Shown here piece after piece: positions 31,682 to 40,884 of a DNA stretch of 64,000 bases. Both the position numbers and the translations under genes were made by a program. The DNA comes from Ignavibacteriota bacterium (GTDB taxonomy: Bacteria; Bacteroidota; Ignavibacteria; Ignavibacteriales; Ignavibacteriaceae), in NCBI GenBank assembly GCA_013285405.1, contig CP053446.1:1215985-1279984 (forward strand). Reading direction: 5' to 3'. Positions within the stretch are counted from its first letter, which is position 1. Every line of letters begins with the position of its first letter. Below the pieces are notes generated by a model that worked only from the letters and a program-made list of their open reading frames with translations, was not told the origin of the DNA and searched no databases.

Positions 31682-31688
31682 AAGAATA

Positions 31689-31765
31689 GAACGCTGATGA
31701 CACAGATATTCGCTGATTTAGATTTTTATCTGCGAGAATCAGTAATATCTGTGTCATCTGCGTTC
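31689..31765. repeat. Long inverted repeat between hemE and hemN
   Basis: Arms 31689-31710 and 31744-31765 match at 21 of 22 when inverted; key words are GAACGC, GATGACACAG and ATATT. It starts 7 bases after the hemE stop. Similar GATGACACAGAT hairpins are dispersed in many bacterial genomes, so this is likely a MITE-like element. Confidence 0.85.
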
Positions 31766-31787
31766 CATTAAATTTATAGGGAATCAC

Positions 31788-33164
31788 ATGTTTGAAGTTG
31801 ATTTAAAAAAATTCAGGAAATACGATAAACCCGGTCCGAGGTACACAAGCTACCCGACGGCACCGCAGTTCAATGAGCATTTTACTCATTCGGATTTTAT
31901 TGATGAAATCGTAAAAACTAATTACGGAAAAAATCTTCCCGATCTATCTCTTTACTTTCATATTCCCTACTGCGATACGCTTTGCTTTTTCTGTGGCTGC
32001 AATATGCTTGTAACACGAAATCGTGAAAGAATAAACGAGTACATAAAATACGTTCAGAAAGAAATTGATTTGATGAGAACATATCTTCTGCCTGACAGAA
32101 AAGTTGTACAGCATCATTGGGGCGGTGGAACTCCAACTCATCTCAAACCGGAAGAAATTAACAAACTTGCTTCATACATAAATCAATCATTCGAGTTTAA
32201 TGAAAATTCAGAGAATAGCTGTGAGATAGATCCGCGTGATTTAACAAAGGAACATCTTGAAGCTTTACGAAACAATGGCTTTAACAGAATTAGTATGGGC
32301 GTGCAGGATTTTAATGAACAAGTTCAGAAAGCTGTCAACAGAATTCAACCAGAAGATTTAACCCGTAAAGTTGTAAACTGGGTGCGAGAATTGAAATTTC
32401 ACAGTATCAATCTTGATTTGATTTATGGACTTCCATTTCAATCATTGAAATCTTTTACTGACACGGTTGAAAAAATTATTGATATTTCTCCTGACAGAAT
32501 TGCGTTGTTCAATTATGCTCACGTTCCGTGGATGAAAAAACATATGGCACTCATTCACGAAGAAGATTTGCCGAAGCCGGAAGTGAAACTTGAAATATTA
32601 AAAATGAGTATTGAAAAACTCACAAGTGCCGGTTACGAATTTATCGGTATGGACCACTTCGCAAAGCCTGATGATGAATTATCCATTGCAATGCGAGAGA
32701 AAAAACTTTACAGAAACTTCCAGGGATATAGCACAAACGCTGGTGCTGATCTTTATGCTTTCGGAATTACTGCGATAAGTCAATTAAAAAATGTTTACGC
32801 ACAGAACTTCAAGACAGAAAAAGAATATTACACTTCTCTCGATAACGAAACTATTCCAACAGTAAAAGGTTATAAGCTGAATGAAGACGATCACATTCGA
32901 CACGAAGTAATAATGAAAATTATGTGTGACTTCGAACTGAACTACAAATCAATCGAGGATAAGTTCAAGATTAAGTTTAAGGATTACTTTAAATGGGGCT
33001 TGAACAACCTTAAAGAATTTGAAGCTGATGAATTAATCGTAATGAACAATGACGGTTTCAAAGTAAAAGATATGGGACGACTTCTCATCCGTAATATTGC
33101 AATGAATTTCGACGGATATATCGAGCGTAAACAAGATACAGCAAAATACTCCAGAACTGTTTAG
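31788..33164 (+). CDS. hemN: Oxygen-independent coproporphyrinogen III oxidase
   Basis: A 458-residue radical SAM enzyme that makes protoporphyrinogen IX without oxygen. The cluster cysteines C62, C66 and C69 lie in YFHIPYCDTLCFFCGCN, and the GGGTPTHL and SMGVQDFNEQVQKAVNR motifs are intact. The C-terminus YSRTV is repeated twice downstream in displaced tails. Anaerobic-type HemN fits an organism living at low oxygen. Confidence 0.96.
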   Translation: MFEVDLKKFRKYDKPGPRYTSYPTAPQFNEHFTHSDFIDEIVKTNYGKNLPDLSLYFHIPYCDTLCFFCGCNMLVTRNRERINEYIKYVQKEIDLMRTYLLPDRKVVQHHWGGGTPTHLKPEEINKLASYINQSFEFNENSENSCEIDPRDLTKEHLEALRNNGFNRISMGVQDFNEQVQKAVNRIQPEDLTRKVVNWVRELKFHSINLDLIYGLPFQSLKSFTDTVEKIIDISPDRIALFNYAHVPWMKKHMALIHEEDLPKPEVKLEILKMSIEKLTSAGYEFIGMDHFAKPDDELSIAMREKKLYRNFQGYSTNAGADLYAFGITAISQLKNVYAQNFKTEKEYYTSLDNETIPTVKGYKLNEDDHIRHEVIMKIMCDFELNYKSIEDKFKIKFKDYFKWGLNNLKEFEADELIVMNNDGFKVKDMGRLLIRNIAMNFDGYIERKQDTAKYSRTV

Positions 33165-33170
33165 GATATA

Positions 33171-33259
33171 ATTGCAATGAACCCTGCCTGCCGGCAGGCA
33201 GGTTTGATGGATACATTGAACGGAAAGAAGACAAAACTAAATATTCGAGGACGGTTTAA
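33171..33259 (+). pseudogene. Displaced hemN 3' end, copy 1, split by a 20-bp palindrome
   Basis: Seven bases after the intact hemN stop, the last ~22 codons appear again: IAMN, then a 20-bp palindrome (33183-33202), then FDGYIERKEDKTKYSRTV and stop. The intact end reads FDGYIERKQDTAKYSRTV. Base differences are mostly synonymous (for example TCGAGGACG against TCCAGAACT), so this came from a diverged orthologue. The palindrome breaks the frame. A 64-residue open frame across this region (33177-33371) is a by-product and not a gene. Confidence 0.92.
33183..33202. repeat. 20-bp perfect palindrome CCTGCCTGCCGGCAGGCAGG
   Basis: A self-complementary GC-rich unit inserted exactly between the Asn and Phe codons of the displaced hemN tail. 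A 21-base variant occurs at 55793-55813. It stands out sharply from the AT-rich surroundings. Confidence 0.95.
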
Positions 33260-33313
33260 CTTAACCACTTGCAAGCAAAATATGCATATTTTTCTATATT
33301 TCGCATCCTTATC

Positions 33314-33346
33314 GGACAATTTTGCATCTCAATTGCAAATTTGTCC
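33314..33346. promoter_or_regulatory. Inverted repeat upstream of the DUF4143 ATPase (possible operator)
   Basis: Arms GGACAATTTTGCA and TGCAAATTTGTCC (13 bases, one mismatch) around a 7-base loop, ending 21 bases before the GTG start. It could be an operator that travels with the ATPase gene, or an RNA hairpin. Confidence 0.5.
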
Positions 33347-33367
33347 ATATCTCAGTAATTTCCATTC

Positions 33368-34534
33368 GTGATTAAAAGACAAATACAAGAAAAACTAATC
33401 CAGTTATCAAAACAATTTCCCGTAGTTGCAGTAGTTGGTCCACGACAATCTGGGAAAACTACTTTGGTAAAGATGACTTTTAAAGATAAGGAATTTCAAA
33501 ATCTTGAGGAGCCGGATACCCGGCTTTTCGCACAGAATGATCCGAGATCGTTTTTATCATCTTCTAAATCAGGATTAATTATAGATGAGGTACAAAGAGT
33601 CCCCGATTTATTTTCATATATCCAGTCTATTGTAGATGAAAATAAAGCTCCGGGAAGTTTTATTATTACCGGTTCACATAATTTTTTAATGCAAGAAAAA
33701 ATTTCCCAAACACTTGCAGGTAGAGTGGCAATACTAACTTTGCTTCCTTTCAGTCTTGAAGAAATTTGGTCAGGAGGCTCAGTAGAAGATTTTTCAAACT
33801 ACATTTTCAGAGGGTTTTATCCTCCAATCTACGATAGAAAAATTGATCCTTCAGATTGGTATCCTAACTACATACGTACTTACCTGGAAAGAGATGTAAG
33901 GTTGATAAAAAATATTCCTGATTTAAACTCTTTTACTTTATTCGTGAAATTGTGTGCGGGCAGAATCGGACAATTGTTAAATCTTTCCTCTCTCGCAGTT
34001 GAGGCGGGAATATCCGTAAACACTGCGAAATCCTGGTTATCAGTTCTCGAAGCTAGCTATATTACTTACAGATTGGAACCACACTTTCAGAATTTCAATA
34101 AAAGATTAGTTAAAATGCCCAAACTTTATTTTTATGATACAGGACTAGCTTGCTCATTACTTGGATTGGAGAGTAAAAATCAGGTCAGTACACATTACCT
34201 GGTAGGAGCTTTATTTGAAAACTTAATTCTTTCAGACTTGATAAAATATAAAATGAATTACGATCTAAACAGTAATTTTTATTTCTGGCGTGACAAGTTA
34301 GGGCGTGAAGTCGATTGCCTAATAGAATCGGGACTGGATAAAATCATACTTGAAATTAAATCTGGGAAAACAATTAATGAAGATTTTTTCAATGGTTTAA
34401 AGTTTTACAAAGATCTTGCAGACGATATGAACATTTTTTCATATCTTGTCTATGGTGGTCAAAAGGAGGAATCTCGCAGCTCTGGGGAGGTGCTGCCGTG
34501 GTACAAAGTAACAAAAGTTTTAAAGAGAAGATAA
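33368..34534 (+). CDS. DUF4143-type AAA+ ATPase
   Basis: A 388-residue ATPase: Walker A VVGPRQSGKTTLV (~25-37), a Walker B-like LIIDEVQRVPDL, the sensor-like ITGSHNFLM, then the DUF4143 C-terminal domain with a nuclease-like patch (FYFWRDKLGREVDCLIESG ... ILEIKSGK). These proteins are common accessory genes of unknown role, sometimes linked to toxin-antitoxin or defence functions. Start is GTG; no ATG is available. It is bracketed by displaced hemN tails, and its last codons and stop overlap the second one, so it looks like an inserted single-gene cargo. Confidence 0.88.
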   Translation: MIKRQIQEKLIQLSKQFPVVAVVGPRQSGKTTLVKMTFKDKEFQNLEEPDTRLFAQNDPRSFLSSSKSGLIIDEVQRVPDLFSYIQSIVDENKAPGSFIITGSHNFLMQEKISQTLAGRVAILTLLPFSLEEIWSGGSVEDFSNYIFRGFYPPIYDRKIDPSDWYPNYIRTYLERDVRLIKNIPDLNSFTLFVKLCAGRIGQLLNLSSLAVEAGISVNTAKSWLSVLEASYITYRLEPHFQNFNKRLVKMPKLYFYDTGLACSLLGLESKNQVSTHYLVGALFENLILSDLIKYKMNYDLNSNFYFWRDKLGREVDCLIESGLDKIILEIKSGKTINEDFFNGLKFYKDLADDMNIFSYLVYGGQKEESRSSGEVLPWYKVTKVLKRR

Positions 34535-34559
34535 AGCAAAGTATTCGAGGACGGTTTAA
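34527..34559 (+). pseudogene. Displaced hemN 3' end, copy 2
   Basis: In frame this reads EDKAKYSRTV and stop, matching the C-terminus of HemN and of copy 1 (EDKTKYSRTV). The last 19 bases plus one following C are identical to copy 1. It begins inside the final codons of the ATPase gene, in another frame, so the ATPase stop codon lies within the repeat. Confidence 0.88.
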
Positions 34560-34618
34560 CATTTATTGACAGTCCCATTATAATTGCTTACATTTGACAA
34601 AAACAAAGGTGAGCAGTT

Positions 34619-35935
34619 ATGAAAATAGACATATTTTCTCCTCCCCTAGTCGATTCAATTGTTTGGGGAACCATCTCGAAAAAATACCTCAGTAAGGTTT
34701 ACCATATCACTGAGAAAATTATTTCATTTCTATTTGTATTCAGTCTTATACAATTTGTTATCTCAGAAACACACGCTCAAAATTTTTTTCCATTAAAAGT
34801 TGGCAATGCTTACCAGATTAAGAATCTTTGGTCTTGGTGGGGTCCTGGAGGAAATGGTGAAATTGGAACTAACTATTACCCTATTACCGTTGTTGAAGAT
34901 ACTGTTATCGACGGAGATATCTTTTTCCGTTATTCTAATAATATATTACTTAATAATGCGTATTTATTTAATTATGATTCCCTAAATCAAAAGGTTTATG
35001 TAAAACTTCCGAATGACACTACACTAAGGTTAGGTGTTGATTTAAATTCGCCAGCTGGTGCAACTTACATCTCCTACTTACGTGGATCACCCTTACAATT
35101 TACGTCTGGTGGGATTACAAATGAAGTTGTTTTGGGAGATACGCACTCAGTTTACATCATGCAATATTCTCCGGCGTCAGATAACTTTATTTATAAATTT
35201 GCTGATAATATTGGTTTATCATATTTCAGAGCCTGGGGTGGAATCATTCAAGCTGGTTACCAATCCACGCAAAATGTAATCTCTGGCATTATTGATAGTA
35301 TAATTTATAACCCTATTATACTTGATATTGATACTCTCTATCCAATTCAGGATAGACCGATTGATACATTTCCATTTTTATTGACAGTATCTTACACCGC
35401 AAACTGGCCGCAACTGATAAATTCATTTTACTTATCAGTTGAGCATATCAGGGTTGATACTTTAATCCAATCATTGCAATATAATATTTCAAAAAATAAT
35501 CCTCATATTACTTTTAATTTGCCTGATTTGTTGGTCGGAGATAAAATTAAATTAAGAGCTACCGCAACAGATTCCAGTATTTTCTTTAACGTTGCTCAGT
35601 ATCCGGATACTGGGTGGGTTGTAATGAATGTATTACCTCCGATTTTAAATGTTGAAAACGAAAGTTTTCCAATACATTATGAGCTTCTACAAAACTATCC
35701 TAATCCATTTAATCCGTCCACTAAAATCAAGTATCAGATTCCTGAATTAAATTTTGTTATTATTAAAGTTTATGATGTGTTAGGAACAGAAATAACTACT
35801 CTTGTTAATGAAGAAAAGATTGCGGGAAGTTATGATGTTGATTTTGATGGAAATGAGCTGGCGAGTGGAATATATTACTATAGAATTACAACCGGAAATT
35901 TTTCACAAACCAAAAAAATGATTTTAATAAAATGA
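34619..35935 (+). CDS. T9SS cargo protein, paralogue 1
   Basis: A 438-residue secreted protein with a signal peptide (hydrophobic ~37-50, then THAQ before NFFPLKVGNAYQ). The body has no known domain. The last ~80 residues are a type A T9SS sorting domain: LLQNYPNPFNPSTKIKYQIP, IIKVYDVLG, LASGIYYYRITTG, and terminal KKMILIK. It is likely exported across the outer membrane and anchored or released by T9SS; no T9SS machinery is in the window. The N-terminus is long before the hydrophobic helix, so a later start is possible. It overlaps paralogue 2 by 4 bases. Confidence 0.85.
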   Translation: MKIDIFSPPLVDSIVWGTISKKYLSKVYHITEKIISFLFVFSLIQFVISETHAQNFFPLKVGNAYQIKNLWSWWGPGGNGEIGTNYYPITVVEDTVIDGDIFFRYSNNILLNNAYLFNYDSLNQKVYVKLPNDTTLRLGVDLNSPAGATYISYLRGSPLQFTSGGITNEVVLGDTHSVYIMQYSPASDNFIYKFADNIGLSYFRAWGGIIQAGYQSTQNVISGIIDSIIYNPIILDIDTLYPIQDRPIDTFPFLLTVSYTANWPQLINSFYLSVEHIRVDTLIQSLQYNISKNNPHITFNLPDLLVGDKIKLRATATDSSIFFNVAQYPDTGWVVMNVLPPILNVENESFPIHYELLQNYPNPFNPSTKIKYQIPELNFVIIKVYDVLGTEITTLVNEEKIAGSYDVDFDGNELASGIYYYRITTGNFSQTKKMILIK

Positions 35936-37185
35936 CTAAAAAGTTCATCGGTATAGCAATCGTAAAAAAAATAATTTTAGCATTAATTATCTATGCTAAT
36001 CTAATTTGTGCTCAAAACTTCTTCCCTCTTAAAGTTGGAAATGCTTATCAGGTTATAGATGATTGGTACTGGAATGTTGGGCATTTTAGTGGTTCGGGAA
36101 CAGATTACCAGAATTTAATTGTACAATCGGATACTTTAATAAATGGTCTGCTCTTCTATAAATTCTCAAACAATTTTAATTATTATCCTCCCATTAATTA
36201 TGATTGTCTATTCAGATACGATTCTCTAAATCAAAAATTGTTTGTAAAGACCCCTTACAGCCCCATTATACGGCTAGCGGTTGATTTCAACACACCGTTG
36301 GATTCGCAATATATTTCCTACATTAACGGAGAACCGATAAATTTTATTTCGCAAGGTCTTTCTTACAAAATAGTAATGGGGGATACACAATTAGTTTATT
36401 CAATGAAACATCCACAAGAAGATAATATTCCATTATATAACTATGAGTTTTCTGCAAATATTGGTTTATCTAAGTTCAAAGAATATGCCGTAAACACGAA
36501 CTCACTCTTTTCACATGATCAGAATATTGTTGCAGCAATTATAGATTCATTATTTTACAATCAATTAATATTAAAGGTAGATTCTCTTTATCCGGTTGAA
36601 GATAGACCGGTTGATACATTTCCCTTTTTACTAACGGTTCCTTGCACTGCCAGCTATACTGAACTCATAGATTCATTTTACCTTGATGTTGAACACATAA
36701 GAGCAGATACTTTAGTTCAGACCAAAAAATACAACATCTCCAAGAGTAATCCACAAATCTCGTTCAATCTTTTCGGGATGCTCTCTGGAGATAAAATTAA
36801 ATTCAGAGCAACAATTACCGATACCTCCATATTTTATAATACTGCACATTATCCGGATGCGGGCTGGGTTGTAATGAATGTTCTTCCACCTATTCTGAAT
36901 GTTGAAGAAGAAAATTTATTATCATTCTATGAACTCGCTCAAAACTTTCCAAATCCCTTTAACCCAACAACGAAAATAAAATATCAACTACCAGAACCTG
37001 TATTTGTTACAATTAAAGTATATGATGTTCTAGGAAATGAAATAGAAACTCTTGTTAATGAAGAGAGGGATGCGGGAAGTTATAAAATTGATTTCAACGG
37101 TTTGGAGTTAACAAGTGGAATATATTACTATAGAATTACAGCCGGAAATTTTTCTCAGACTAAAAAAATGATTTTGTTAAAATGA
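35932..37185 (+). CDS. T9SS cargo protein, paralogue 2
   Basis: A 417-residue paralogue of the preceding protein along its whole length: NFFPLKVGNAYQVIDDW after a signal peptide, LYPVEDRPVDTFPFLLTVPCTA in the middle (the other has LYPIQDRPIDTFPFLLTVSYTA), and a near-identical sorting domain (NFPNPFNPTTKIKYQLP ... TSGIYYYRITAGNFSQ). Tandem duplication is the simplest explanation. Overlaps both neighbours by 4 bases (ATGA), so the three are translationally coupled. Confidence 0.87.
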   Translation: MTKKFIGIAIVKKIILALIIYANLICAQNFFPLKVGNAYQVIDDWYWNVGHFSGSGTDYQNLIVQSDTLINGLLFYKFSNNFNYYPPINYDCLFRYDSLNQKLFVKTPYSPIIRLAVDFNTPLDSQYISYINGEPINFISQGLSYKIVMGDTQLVYSMKHPQEDNIPLYNYEFSANIGLSKFKEYAVNTNSLFSHDQNIVAAIIDSLFYNQLILKVDSLYPVEDRPVDTFPFLLTVPCTASYTELIDSFYLDVEHIRADTLVQTKKYNISKSNPQISFNLFGMLSGDKIKFRATITDTSIFYNTAHYPDAGWVVMNVLPPILNVEEENLLSFYELAQNFPNPFNPTTKIKYQLPEPVFVTIKVYDVLGNEIETLVNEERDAGSYKIDFNGLELTSGIYYYRITAGNFSQTKKMILLK

Positions 37186-38411
37186 AAATTGTAATCATTA
37201 TCACAATACTCACTATCACATTAGTTGCACAACCAACTCCTAACCATTACAATTTTATGGCACAAAGAGATAGTTTGTATTATTTGCTTACAGACAATTC
37301 ACTTTTGAAATTCTATTCGCATGAAGCAAGCGGTGAATTCTTTCTGACAAAATATGTTGAAGGTAACTTTCCATCTTCTACCAAATACACATTAAATGGT
37401 GATTACTTCTTTCTTGCATATAATGATTCAATATTTTATTTCTTAAACAGATCAATAGATGAATTAAGTTTTGAAAACGTGTTTGCACCTGGCTTCGCTA
37501 TTTCATCACTTCACGGCTTTGGTCCATATTTTTTCATTCGATCTGGTAATACTTATCATCTTTATAAAATTGTAAGTGGACTTGTTGAATTGGTTGAAGA
37601 TTCATTATTTAATCATCCATCTCAGGAGCTTGTCTTTTTCGTATATCCATATGTTACGATCGCACAAACCGTTTATAAGTACATTGAAGGGTTTGATTTT
37701 TACTCTATAACACAAATCAGTATTGGAAATGGAAATACTGGTCTCACCGATAACACACTTATATCCTATAGATTCTGGGTAGAACCTTGGCCATCAATGG
37801 AGGAACATAGCGTACTTGAGAAAACAATTATTGAAGAACCGAATTTCCCCAATTTTACCTATAATGGATGGGGAAGTAATATTAGCCAATTGCATCAACC
37901 TTTTGGATGGGGAACTTTAATTGCAAAAAAGAATTTATATTTTATGATGTGGGTTGGTGTAATTACTACACATAATTCTCAACTTGCTTATCTACCCACT
38001 ACTCAAGAAAGAGCTACAATTTCAGACTATTATATTTTCTTATTAGGTAACGACTCGCTCAGATACTCTAAGTGGAATGCAGGTTCTACTTTTTATCCTT
38101 TCACCTGGGTAGACTATACTCCAGTTGAAAACAATGATGAACCTATGCTATCTTTTGAACTTTCTCAAAATTATCCCAATCCATTCAACCCATCGACAAA
38201 AATAAGATATGAGATTCCTGAAATGAGTTTTGTTACCATAAAAGTTTATGATGTGTTGGGAAAACAAATACTATCTCTTGTCAATGAGGAAAAGTCAGCA
38301 GGAAATTATGAAATTGAATTTAATGGTAAAGAATTGGCAAGTGGAATTTATTATTATAGAATTTCCGCAGGAAATTTTTCGCAAACTAAGAAAATGATTC
38401 TTTTGAAATAA
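37182..38411 (+). CDS. T9SS cargo protein, third in the run
   Basis: A 409-residue protein with a short signal peptide (MKIVIIITILTITLVAQ). The body is not similar to the two preceding proteins; it has repeated aromatic-rich strands (FYSHEASGEFFLTKYVEGNF) that suggest a beta-propeller-like fold, which is a guess. The sorting domain (LSQNYPNPFNPSTKIRYEIP ... LASGIYYYRISAGNFSQ, KKMILLK) is almost the same as theirs. This points to domain shuffling or gene conversion limited to the C-terminus. Confidence 0.83.
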   Translation: MKIVIIITILTITLVAQPTPNHYNFMAQRDSLYYLLTDNSLLKFYSHEASGEFFLTKYVEGNFPSSTKYTLNGDYFFLAYNDSIFYFLNRSIDELSFENVFAPGFAISSLHGFGPYFFIRSGNTYHLYKIVSGLVELVEDSLFNHPSQELVFFVYPYVTIAQTVYKYIEGFDFYSITQISIGNGNTGLTDNTLISYRFWVEPWPSMEEHSVLEKTIIEEPNFPNFTYNGWGSNISQLHQPFGWGTLIAKKNLYFMMWVGVITTHNSQLAYLPTTQERATISDYYIFLLGNDSLRYSKWNAGSTFYPFTWVDYTPVENNDEPMLSFELSQNYPNPFNPSTKIRYEIPEMSFVTIKVYDVLGKQILSLVNEEKSAGNYEIEFNGKELASGIYYYRISAGNFSQTKKMILLK

Positions 38412-38413
38412 CA

Positions 38414-38458
38414 CTAATCACTCGGTTTTTCTTTCATCGGGTAAAAATTTAAGAAATC
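38414..38458 (-). pseudogene. Displaced 3' end of the ATP-grasp gene
   Basis: On the minus strand this reads DFLNFYPMKEKPSD and stop. The intact ATP-grasp protein ends KDFFASAPMKEKPSD. The 27 bases at 38411-38437 are identical to 39610-39636; the next Pro codon differs synonymously and the residues before it diverge but still align. It starts 2 bases after the stop of the desaturase gene, so the desaturase sits exactly between intact and displaced tails. Confidence 0.9.
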
Positions 38459-38460
38459 AT

Positions 38461-39396
38461 CTATGATCCGGCACTTACGGATTCAATTTCCTTTTCTTCA
38501 ACAATTTTTTTTCCGGTGTTCAAATCTTTTTCTTTACTGATTCTTTCCAGTCTCATTGAGTCTGTTTTGAATTTTGGGATAACAAGAGACAAAAAATAAC
38601 TTCTGAATATATACCACCAGAAACTTCTTTCTAGCAAAATTGGATTTATGTTGTGTGCAATTTCATTGTGGGCTTGAGGAGCTTTTTTCCAATGAAGTCC
38701 TGCTTTCTGATGATGAATAGTGTGATAGCCATTATTGAAAAGAAGAAAATTAAGGAACCCGGTAAAGTTTCTTGAATGATTCCACTCGGATTCTTCATCG
38801 GCGTGAACGTGCTGAACGTAATTAAATATCAAAACGCTAAATAGAGAAACTTGCTGGGGTATGATTACAAATAGTAATGCTTTCTCCCAATCAATTATAA
38901 ATGCTGCAGCTATCCACAAAACAAGCACAACATACTGTGAAATACTTATCCAGAATTTCTCCCTGTTGTTTGCTTTCATTTCTTTCAGATAAACCATTAT
39001 TGCTTTTTGCTGATAGTAGCCGCTAATTGTCGGATATGAAATGAGAGTAAGTAAATTATTTCTTTCACTTATCCGATAAGTAATTGAGTCATCGCCTGCC
39101 CGATTGTTAAAGCGATGATGGTTTTTATTATGTGTTGGTATCCACGCAAATATCGGGAAACCATAAAATACGGTAAGCCACCAGTCAGTAAACACATTCA
39201 TCCCCTTTGATTTCCACATTGGTAAGTGGTTATGGTTATGAGTCATTACAGCCACAGTTACTGACATAAATAAAAACCATGTATAGATAAAAGTATTAGT
39301 TCCTAGCCAGAGCCATTGACTAATAAATAATGATGAGGTGATAAAAATATAAACCAGACTCTTTATGTCGGCAATTTCTTTTAGTTTTAAACTCAT
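38461..39396 (-). CDS. Membrane fatty acid desaturase
   Basis: A 311-residue di-iron membrane desaturase with about four to five TM helices and three histidine boxes: THNHNHLP (~50), HNKNHHRF (~90) and HTIHHQKAGLHW (~220). It inserts a double bond in acyl chains or acts on a related lipid. Charged C-terminal tail. Its stop codon lies 2 bases from a displaced copy of the neighbouring ATP-grasp gene tail, so it was probably inserted as cargo behind that gene. Confidence 0.9.
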   Translation of the reverse strand: MSLKLKEIADIKSLVYIFITSSLFISQWLWLGTNTFIYTWFLFMSVTVAVMTHNHNHLPMWKSKGMNVFTDWWLTVFYGFPIFAWIPTHNKNHHRFNNRAGDDSITYRISERNNLLTLISYPTISGYYQQKAIMVYLKEMKANNREKFWISISQYVVLVLWIAAAFIIDWEKALLFVIIPQQVSLFSVLIFNYVQHVHADEESEWNHSRNFTGFLNFLLFNNGYHTIHHQKAGLHWKKAPQAHNEIAHNINPILLERSFWWYIFRSYFLSLVIPKFKTDSMRLERISKEKDLNTGKKIVEEKEIESVSAGS

Positions 39397-39612: not shown

Positions 39613-40827
39613 CTAATCACTCGGTTTTTCTTTCATTGGAGCACTAGCAAAAAAATCTTTATAAAATCTCTCCGTGTATTTCCCGAGCATTTCTTCAACA
39701 ACTTTGTGGTGCTTTGAACGGATTACAAATCCGGCGTGGTATGATTTATCCAATCTCCATACAATTTCAGGATCGTTGTAAGATGAAAGATCGGGCCACT
39801 CCTGTTTTGATAATGAAGTTATAATTCCTGCATAGTCATTTTTAACTTCGGGATATTTGTATTCTGATTCGCCCCTGAGAATTTCTATTTTCGCCCATTC
39901 ACGCCATAAATTAATTCCGGATGCCGCAAGCACGAGCTCAGAAAGATTTGCTCCGCCAACACGAGCAGAAGTTTCAAGAAAATAAATTTTTCCATCTTTA
40001 TCGGATTCAATAAACTCTGTGTGGGAAACTCCGCGCAGCATTCCAAGAGCTTTCATTAATTTTTCATTCAGTTCAAGAAGCTGCTGCTCTTTTTTACTTC
40101 CTCGTTCAACTGTCCTGCTTGTAAAAACTCTTCCTTCGTGTGCAACTTCAAATGGCGGTTTCCCGTACTGGCTTGCAATTGCAAATCGTACTTCGTGCTC
40201 ATAAATAATTGAATCAACGTGATAAATATTTCCAGGGATAAATCTTTCCATCAAGAAAAACGATTGTTCGTCGCCAAGATGATTTATACGATTCCACATT
40301 TCTTCTTTGCTGTTAACTTTTTTCAATCCGTGTGCGCCGGCAAGCATTCTTGGTTTAATCATATACGGATACGGAACTTTTTCAGCAAATTCATTAATAT
40401 CATTGTGATTAAGAACGTGAATGAATTCAGGGACAGGGATTCCCATTTCCTTTGCTCTCATTCTCATTGCAAGTTTATCACGAAAGTAACGTGCGGTTGT
40501 GTCACCCATCCCTGGAACGCGTAAATGTTCTCTTAACGCTGCAGCTTTCTCAACATCAAAATCATCGAGGGCAACAATCCTGTCAATCTTTTCGTTCCTT
40601 GCAACAAAGCTTACTCCGTAAATAACATCGCGCATATTCCATTCTTTGTTTTTATCCGGCATATAAAAAATTTCATCGATTGATTCTTTAGGCCATGGAG
40701 CCGTTTCAAGACTTTTTGATGTAAGTAATAAAACACGACAGCCTTGATCCTTACACTCACGCATAAAGTCAAATCCTTTTTCATAAGAAGAAACGCAAAG
40801 CACGGTGTTGGGTTTAGCGGAGTTCAT
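39613..40827 (-). CDS. ATP-grasp family carboxylate-amine/thiol ligase-like protein
   Basis: A 404-residue ATP-grasp protein. A Rossmann-like start (NTVLCVSSYEKGFDFMRECKDQGCRVLLLT) precedes the ATP-grasp core (FRDKLAMRMRAKEMGIPVPEF, PYMIKPRMLAGAHGLKKV, FIPGNIYHVDSIIY, FLETSARVGGANLSELV). The substrate is unknown; the family joins acids to amines with ATP. I prefer the ATG at 40827 (MNSAKPNTV). An in-frame TTG at 40869 adds 14 residues that do not look like part of the fold. The final codons (MKEKPSD) are duplicated beyond the desaturase gene. Confidence 0.87.
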   Translation of the reverse strand: MNSAKPNTVLCVSSYEKGFDFMRECKDQGCRVLLLTSKSLETAPWPKESIDEIFYMPDKNKEWNMRDVIYGVSFVARNEKIDRIVALDDFDVEKAAALREHLRVPGMGDTTARYFRDKLAMRMRAKEMGIPVPEFIHVLNHNDINEFAEKVPYPYMIKPRMLAGAHGLKKVNSKEEMWNRINHLGDEQSFFLMERFIPGNIYHVDSIIYEHEVRFAIASQYGKPPFEVAHEGRVFTSRTVERGSKKEQQLLELNEKLMKALGMLRGVSHTEFIESDKDGKIYFLETSARVGGANLSELVLAASGINLWREWAKIEILRGESEYKYPEVKNDYAGIITSLSKQEWPDLSSYNDPEIVWRLDKSYHAGFVIRSKHHKVVEEMLGKYTERFYKDFFASAPMKEKPSD

Positions 40828-40884
40828 ATCTTTTGCTCTTAGTGTATTGTGTATAATAATGTGTGGCAATTTTAAGTTATATGG

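Follow-up and report, generated by a model that had tools for sequence, protein, structure and literature searches.

Small selfish or defense genes that enter genomes without a recombinase and are bordered by long, variable direct repeats have been reported before (Nobusato et al., 2000, cited in PMC1643837 and PMC3031569). The insertions analyzed here resemble these target-duplicating elements in involving small selfish or defense genes, in lacking a recombinase, in their long repeats and in the existence of empty sites. Measured against the hallmarks of that group, the empty site and the long repeats of variable length (about 18-216 nt) are present, but the copying of an arbitrary stretch of target is not: the repeat found here is the 3' coding end of a gene, it is bounded by the stop codon, and its copies have diverged. 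Moreover, the Nobusato-type elements carry restriction-modification genes, whereas the cargos encountered here comprise an ATPase, DUF1016 proteins, toxin-antitoxin pairs and others, with toxin-antitoxin and single-gene defense candidates making up the majority. The mobile ORFs of fungal mitochondria (Allomyces atp6; Glomus atp6, atp9, cox2, and nad3; PMC3630166) replace the C-termini of genes, and they share with our cases the inserted reading frame, the native C-terminus displaced downstream of it and the synonymous divergence between the copies; the fungal elements, which reside in organelles, have homing endonucleases of the LAGLIDADG or GIY-YIG type as cargo, whereas ours are varied bacterial genes for which cutting is not shown. 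Tail-flanked cassettes consequently differ from the Nobusato type by the shape of the repeat and from the fungal mobile ORFs by the type of cargo.

Three further bodies of work touch upon the subject. Homology-facilitated illegitimate recombination (PMC3240628) integrates foreign DNA by homology at one end and illegitimately at the other without any recombinase, but taken alone it predicts neither a gene-tail remnant nor the repeated reuse of a unit. The PADLOC candidates PDC-S01 and PDC-S02, to whose families the two kinds of cargo found behind hemN belong, are single-gene defense candidates derived from guilt-by-embedding, and validation is pending for most such candidates (PADLOC; PMC12988326). 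PDC-S01 is described as a fusion of an ATPase with a PD-(D/E)XK domain and is reported to rank as the fourth most common defense across prokaryotes; the passages of that paper bearing on the matter do not describe entry into other operons (PMC12988326). Rpn/YhgA-like nucleases are likewise PD-(D/E)XK proteins with repeated independent insertion at one intergenic site, but they form another family (PF04754), and no tail duplication is reported in the relevant sections (PMC5350276). Within the openly licensed literature that we searched, we found no description of tail-duplicating insertion for toxin-antitoxin or single-gene defense families.

The window, a stretch of 64,000 nucleotides from the chromosome of an Ignavibacteriota bacterium (home genome, G000), contains two cases of this architecture, whose features are compiled in Table 1. 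A sequence-only reading of the window had claimed that the final codons of hemN recur twice, in frame, behind the intact gene. This held: the intact gene ends with its stop codon at positions 33162-33164, and KYSRTV-stop closes both extra tails in frame. It had also correctly placed the stop codon of the ATPase inside the second tail and had rightly noted the lack of a recombinase, as there is no such gene between the two hemN tails; its start of the second tail, 34527, held only in part, since this tail is slightly longer. The recurrence is specific. A degenerate KYSRTV-stop pattern has three matches in the home genome, all of them at the hemN locus, and no more than one in every other genome, while the reversed control pattern yielded none; a 35-nt tail pattern had no control matches across 164 genomes. 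The anchored tail score of 43 at the hemN locus was attained by 0 of 1650 shuffled controls, and tail 1 is recovered within the window by tblastn with E = 3e-6.

Table 1. Features of the two tail-flanked insertions and their surroundings, in window coordinates.
Feature	Position	Strand	Remarks
Intact hemN	31788..33164	+	Radical SAM, HemN_C; target gene of the insertion
Tail 1	33170..33259	+	First of the extra hemN 3' ends; not separated from the hemN stop by cargo
20-bp palindrome CCTGCCTGCCGGCAGGCAGG	33183..33202	.	Splits tail 1; dispersed repeat, ~33 per Mb
Imperfect palindrome GGACAATTTTGCATCTCAATTGCAAATTTGTCC	33314..33346	.	Upstream of the ATPase gene
Cargo ATPase, AAA_14 + DUF4143	33368..34534	+	388 aa, GTG start; PADLOC PDC-S01; Pfam
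Tail 2	34524..34559	+	Displaced native hemN 3' end; contains the ATPase stop codon 34532-34534
Native downstream flank + Por_Secre_tail gene	34560..35935	+	Empty-site marker in G004
Displaced ATP-grasp tail	38414..38470	-	18 residues long, closing with PMKEKPSD-stop; anchored score 53
Second cargo, fatty-acid desaturase gene	38461..39396	-	Between the two ATP-grasp tails
ATP-grasp gene	39613..40869	-	Tail ..PMKEKPSD-stop recurs beyond the neighboring gene

The empty site that the sequence-only reading had called for exists. The DNA that lies behind tail 2 in the window comes immediately after hemN in the congener G004; the two flanks are collinear from base 6-7 onward, with 66% identity over 1400 nt. 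Because of this collinearity, tail 2 is the resident end of hemN, displaced by about 1.4 kb, and its origin is thereby shown by position: a unit consisting of a tail and the ATPase gene was inserted upstream of the recipient's own hemN end. Across the order, cargo in front of a displaced tail occurs at four hemN loci and is missing from nearly all of the remaining hemN copies found, so that the proposal of an insertion at the hemN 3' end leaving gene tails behind is supported by the empty site together with these four loci. The evidence on the origin of the intact hemN end is softer. Over the last 36 nt, identity to G004 amounts to 0.78 for the intact hemN versus 0.92 for tail 2 (tail 1 reaches 0.89 across 57 nt). 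At the protein level, the hemN products of relatives end in ..ERKEDKAKYSRTV, tail 2 in ..REDKAKYSRTV and the intact hemN of the window in ..RKQDTAKYSRTV; the ends of the relatives are thus closer to the displaced tails (EDK) than to the intact gene (QDT). This difference could reflect a replaced hemN tail, and the last 57 nt or so of the intact gene may, as inferred from the sequence, be derived from a donor.

Several other repeats lie in the vicinity. Between a hemE-like gene and hemN, an inverted repeat with 26-nt arms (92%; 31685-31769) contains text like AACGCTGATGACACAGATATT; similar text is present behind the rumA-like gene of G008, and it probably represents a dispersed repeat. Three tandem, related Por_Secre_tail-like genes (type IX secretion sorting) occupy positions 34619-38411, and sequences of this type confound any search for duplicated gene ends. 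The palindrome within tail 1 (CCTGCCTGC.GGCAGGCAGG; 33 per Mb) is found in or next to cargo-poor tail copies, namely in hemN tail 1, at the genes at 1138277 and 541797 and at a fragment behind metB (listed loci: 33183-33202 and L193-L252, i.e., G000:C1:294770, 543020, and 1138237). Three such palindromes fall within 9.5 kb of tail-flanked DNA where 0.3 would be expected (P = 0.004; 0.02 when corrected for intergenic position), a count that was made post hoc. The imperfect palindrome upstream of the ATPase gene was not found at any of the genome's five remaining DUF4143 copies; it might be a regulatory site.

The cargo at hemN matches the PADLOC profile PDC-S01 (8.2e-102) and the Pfam families PF13635 and PF13173, in each case over nearly its full length. 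The Walker A residues and D316...E329-x-K331 are invariant among its close relatives, and D316 and K331 remain so in a wider DUF4143 set; we infer from the sequence that these residues form a PD-(D/E)XK-type motif, but cutting is not shown. The AlphaFold model is poor (mean pLDDT 49), and we note no more than the D..ExK motif and the order in which strands and helix follow each other at the C-terminus. When all genomes were scanned with this single protein, only three distant loci were recovered.

A different cargo occupies the same position in other genera. In two additional genomes, an order-wide search with the hemN tail pattern located a pair of tails separated by 1236 bp; in a further genome, the arrangement is split across two contigs. 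In G062, G096, and G059, a DUF1016/YhcG PDDEXK protein (PDC-S02) is encoded between hemN and a displaced hemN tail, with the cargo frame-damaged in G096 and G059. The displaced tails of all three start at the same hemN codon, immediately behind the stop codon of the cargo. Their post-tail flanks are all different, and those of G062 and G059 match the flanks behind hemN of cargo-free congeners. As for the G000/G004 pair, the flanks of the empty site align from the first bases after the tail when G062 is compared with G017 and G060; the pair G059/G063 is collinear as well, but offset. The identity of the DUF1016 cargos between genera (82.3 and 80.5%) exceeds that of the hemN bodies (73.4 and 74.7%), and therefore the cassette moved horizontally; its movement between genera we regard as shown. 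For these DUF1016 units, it is likely that the hemN tail is the only right-side sequence that donor and recipient must share. In G033 (L031:9350-9448; G033:C90:31349-31447), a 149-aa ORF is directly followed by an orphan hemN tail, 33 codons long and closed by an in-frame stop; it lies far from the hemN gene of that genome and may be what is left of a second hemN that was lost. G018 possesses two full hemN genes (L032 and L033; C27 and C86), and the end and downstream flank of the one on C27 are nearly identical to those of the G033 copy, maybe through contamination or transfer. A match of the short hemN pattern in G025:C55 was taken as chance, since tblastn found no hemN tail there.

The architecture is neither specific to hemN nor confined to the DUF4143 ATPase, a genome-wide pattern that the sequence-only reading had missed. 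In the second case in the window, the stop codon of the desaturase gene falls inside the displaced ATP-grasp tail. Elsewhere in the home genome, a DUF4143 gene lies in antisense orientation between hslU and a displaced hslU tail, and a further DUF4143 gene resides behind a 339-aa gene. At the end of hslU in G001, a macro-domain gene is followed by the displaced tail and the native terminator. We scanned the home genome over 1.26 Mb for copies of gene ends, with 761 genes tested and Por_Secre tails left out. Eleven genes had a 5'-truncated copy of their own tail no more than 5 kb downstream, and nine cases remained after the removal of two adjacent paralog pairs; there was no real tail copy upstream of any of the 761 genes and at most one copy of a gene head. 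The cargos were VapB/VapC behind nuoF, MNT/HepT behind metB and MNT/HepT-like/Fic behind carB; a rumA-like RNA methylase gene is followed by GNAT, a 428-aa gene by UPF0175/DUF3368, the ATP-grasp gene of the window by the desaturase and hemN by DUF4143, while two cases had no cargo gene. Most of these cargos are of toxin-antitoxin or defense-like type. Repeated insertion at one gene, which the sequence-only reading had suspected, is shown at rumA: the gene is followed by the GNAT cargo, tail A, a DUF433/DUF5615 pair, tail B and then a flank that lies directly behind rumA in G002. Empty sites were thus found in G002 for rumA, and also for metB, and the one at hslU is supported via the terminator. 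No tail case passed in 400 kb of G023, and the rate of insertion hence varies among genomes.

Family-wide surveys gave a concordant picture, although DNA repeats alone proved too broad a criterion and were rejected as such. With the threshold set at the 99.9% level of shuffled pairs, flanking direct repeats were present at 21 of 69 DUF4143 loci of the family, as opposed to 4 of 124 ordinary genes (P = 1.6e-7), one of which turned out to be a real tail case, and at 5 of 29 DUF1016 loci (P = 0.013). However, many of the 21 repeats at DUF4143 genes are dispersed intergenic repeats rather than gene tails, and tandem Por_Secre paralogs add to the problem. The replacement criterion, a stop-anchored protein tail test with shuffled controls, was passed by 5 of 75 DUF4143 loci in the family and 3 of 31 DUF1016 loci versus 0 of 1650 controls; for DUF4143 in the phylum, it was passed by 2 of 32, one of them convincing (L274). 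Clear gene tails in the survey belong to ychF, clpB, an FAD oxidoreductase gene, a short-chain dehydrogenase gene and hsdM. In the last case (L078; G020:C98 near 169463), a DUF1016 gene (PDC-S02) lies directly behind an N6_Mtase (hsdM) gene whose tail is duplicated, and a defense candidate is thus embedded in a restriction-modification locus by a gene-tail scar. The recurrence of tail-flanked insertion at many genes is therefore shown.

While the tail-flanked architecture is well supported, the mechanism behind it is inferred. We favor, with a probability of roughly 0.6, recombinase-free cassettes whose movement relies on homologous recombination, in which the target gene would serve as the left arm and the displaced tail as the right arm. 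In this scenario, DNA of a relative carrying the hemN 3' end and a cargo gene would recombine with the resident hemN. A left crossover in the body of hemN would provide the gene with the C-terminal codons of the donor and with the post-stop DNA of the donor, including the cargo; a right join inside the resident hemN tail would push this tail downstream, where it would persist as a non-coding remnant. The resulting unit of gene end, cargo and orphan gene end would have both flanks homologous to one conserved gene, and from then on ordinary RecA-type recombination could carry it into the corresponding gene of any relative, regardless of the sequence downstream. On its first occurrence, the right-hand join would be illegitimate, along the lines of homology-facilitated illegitimate recombination, and later transfers would be homologous at both ends. 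The preference for 3' ends may reflect tolerance, as the host gene remains whole, and the cargos may be kept for defense or addiction. That RecA is required, that the displaced tail acts as an arm and that DNA uptake is the route are all inferences.

This model accounts for several features of the data. In 10 of 11 gene-tail cases, the repeat ends within about 14 nt of the stop codon, and it does so even in young cases such as ychF (94% over 180 nt, ending at +4 nt) and the FAD oxidoreductase gene (92% over 132 nt, ending at +0); the incoming piece consequently had its own post-stop DNA. The copy adjoining the native flank is the displaced one and not the intact one. An incoming gene end with its own post-stop DNA and cargo explains the stop-bounded repeat, the position of the displaced copy at the flank and cargos without a common enzyme; the cargo types are mutually unrelated, so that no single cargo enzyme can be the agent. 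The same junction codon with differing flanks in the DUF1016 cases is predicted by a two-armed unit. Nevertheless, the inferred donor origin of the intact tail is possible and no more than suggestive: informative sites pooled over six genes favor the displaced copy over the intact one as the native one by 38 to 24 (P = 0.10), with individual ratios of 7:2 for hemN (versus G004), 8:1 for carB, 10:5 for metB, 4:3 for hslU and, in the opposite direction, 8:10 for rumA and 1:3 for ychF. Nor did we identify a genome that shares the intact tail and could have been the donor. Against the displaced tail as an arm speaks its length of 18-36 nt at hslU and hemN of the home genome, which is under the usual lengths for efficient homologous recombination, and tail 1, without cargo of its own and with an unexplained palindrome, fits poorly into the cassette model.

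A homing-type nuclease is a possible alternative. The PD-(D/E)XK domain of the cargo (DUF4143 or DUF1016) would cut an uninvaded hemN near its 3' end, and repair from a cassette-bearing copy would install the cargo along with a cut-proof tail, as with the mobile ORFs of fungal mitochondria. Gene, inserted ORF and displaced native C-terminus indeed follow one another as in the fungal elements, where a gene with a foreign C-terminus precedes an endonuclease ORF (PMC3630166). Both hemN cargos have predicted PD-(D/E)XK domains (PMC12988326), and Rpn nucleases, which belong to the same superfamily, promote recombination that does not depend on RecA, with rpnC having entered the gap between panC and panD twice, independently (PMC5350276). 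However, the desaturase, macro domain, GNAT, MNT/HepT, VapBC, UPF0175/DUF3368, and DUF433/DUF5615 cargos are not known DNA-cutters of that kind, and DUF4143 proteins, a single family, sit at many unrelated targets. The macro-domain cargo at hslU in G001 led us to drop nuclease homing as the sole mechanism of first choice. Insertion with long target duplication, in which 20-200 bp of the target are copied into direct repeats, has the reported precedent introduced at the outset, but we disfavor it as unlikely: the repeat should overrun the stop codon at random, but it ends close to the stop codon even where the copies are 92-94% identical, and most copies differ by 10-28%.

Genomic islands that insert at gene 3' ends restore the end of the gene and leave a remnant of it behind, and site-specific integration at island-style att sites, through an integrase that acts in trans or has disappeared since, might produce a comparable layout. 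We consider this very unlikely, as the targets (hemN, hslU, ychF, clpB, nuoF, carB, metB, rumA, and hsdM) share neither a protein family nor a common core, as judged without a formal motif search, the junctions lie at different codons of different genes, the cargos occur in both orientations, the repeats vary from about 18 to 216 nt in length, and no recombinase ORF lies between gene and displaced tail in the cassettes inspected. Decayed tandem duplicates of hemN, with the ATPase gene arriving later by chance, would account for two extra tails behind one gene, but this explanation is all but excluded: it is contradicted by the empty sites, by the same architecture with unrelated cargos at a dozen unrelated genes, by the absence of tail copies upstream and by homology that is always confined to the final 70 codons or so.

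The tail-armed cassettes address the open question of how toxin-antitoxin pairs and single-gene defense candidates get into genomes when no recombinase is at hand. The displaced tail is a countable scar that reveals in which direction insertion took place, which gene was the target, where the empty site lies and in what relative order stacked insertions arrived, and it renders the question testable by genome scanning and by a transformation assay. It also offers a physical explanation for embedding behind operon genes such as hsdM, and it makes short orphan gene tails readable as records of the arrival of genes. A bolder reading, which we would put slightly on the doubtful side, sees here a general form of recombinase-free gene mobility in bacteria, in which solitary defense genes and toxin-antitoxin pairs carry an arm of homology to a core gene. 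If true, such cassettes would cross genera by homologous recombination into the 3' ends of genes, stack there and become embedded in operons and defense systems. Insertion that leaves a spare gene tail behind may be the way in which small "selfish" genes travel between species.
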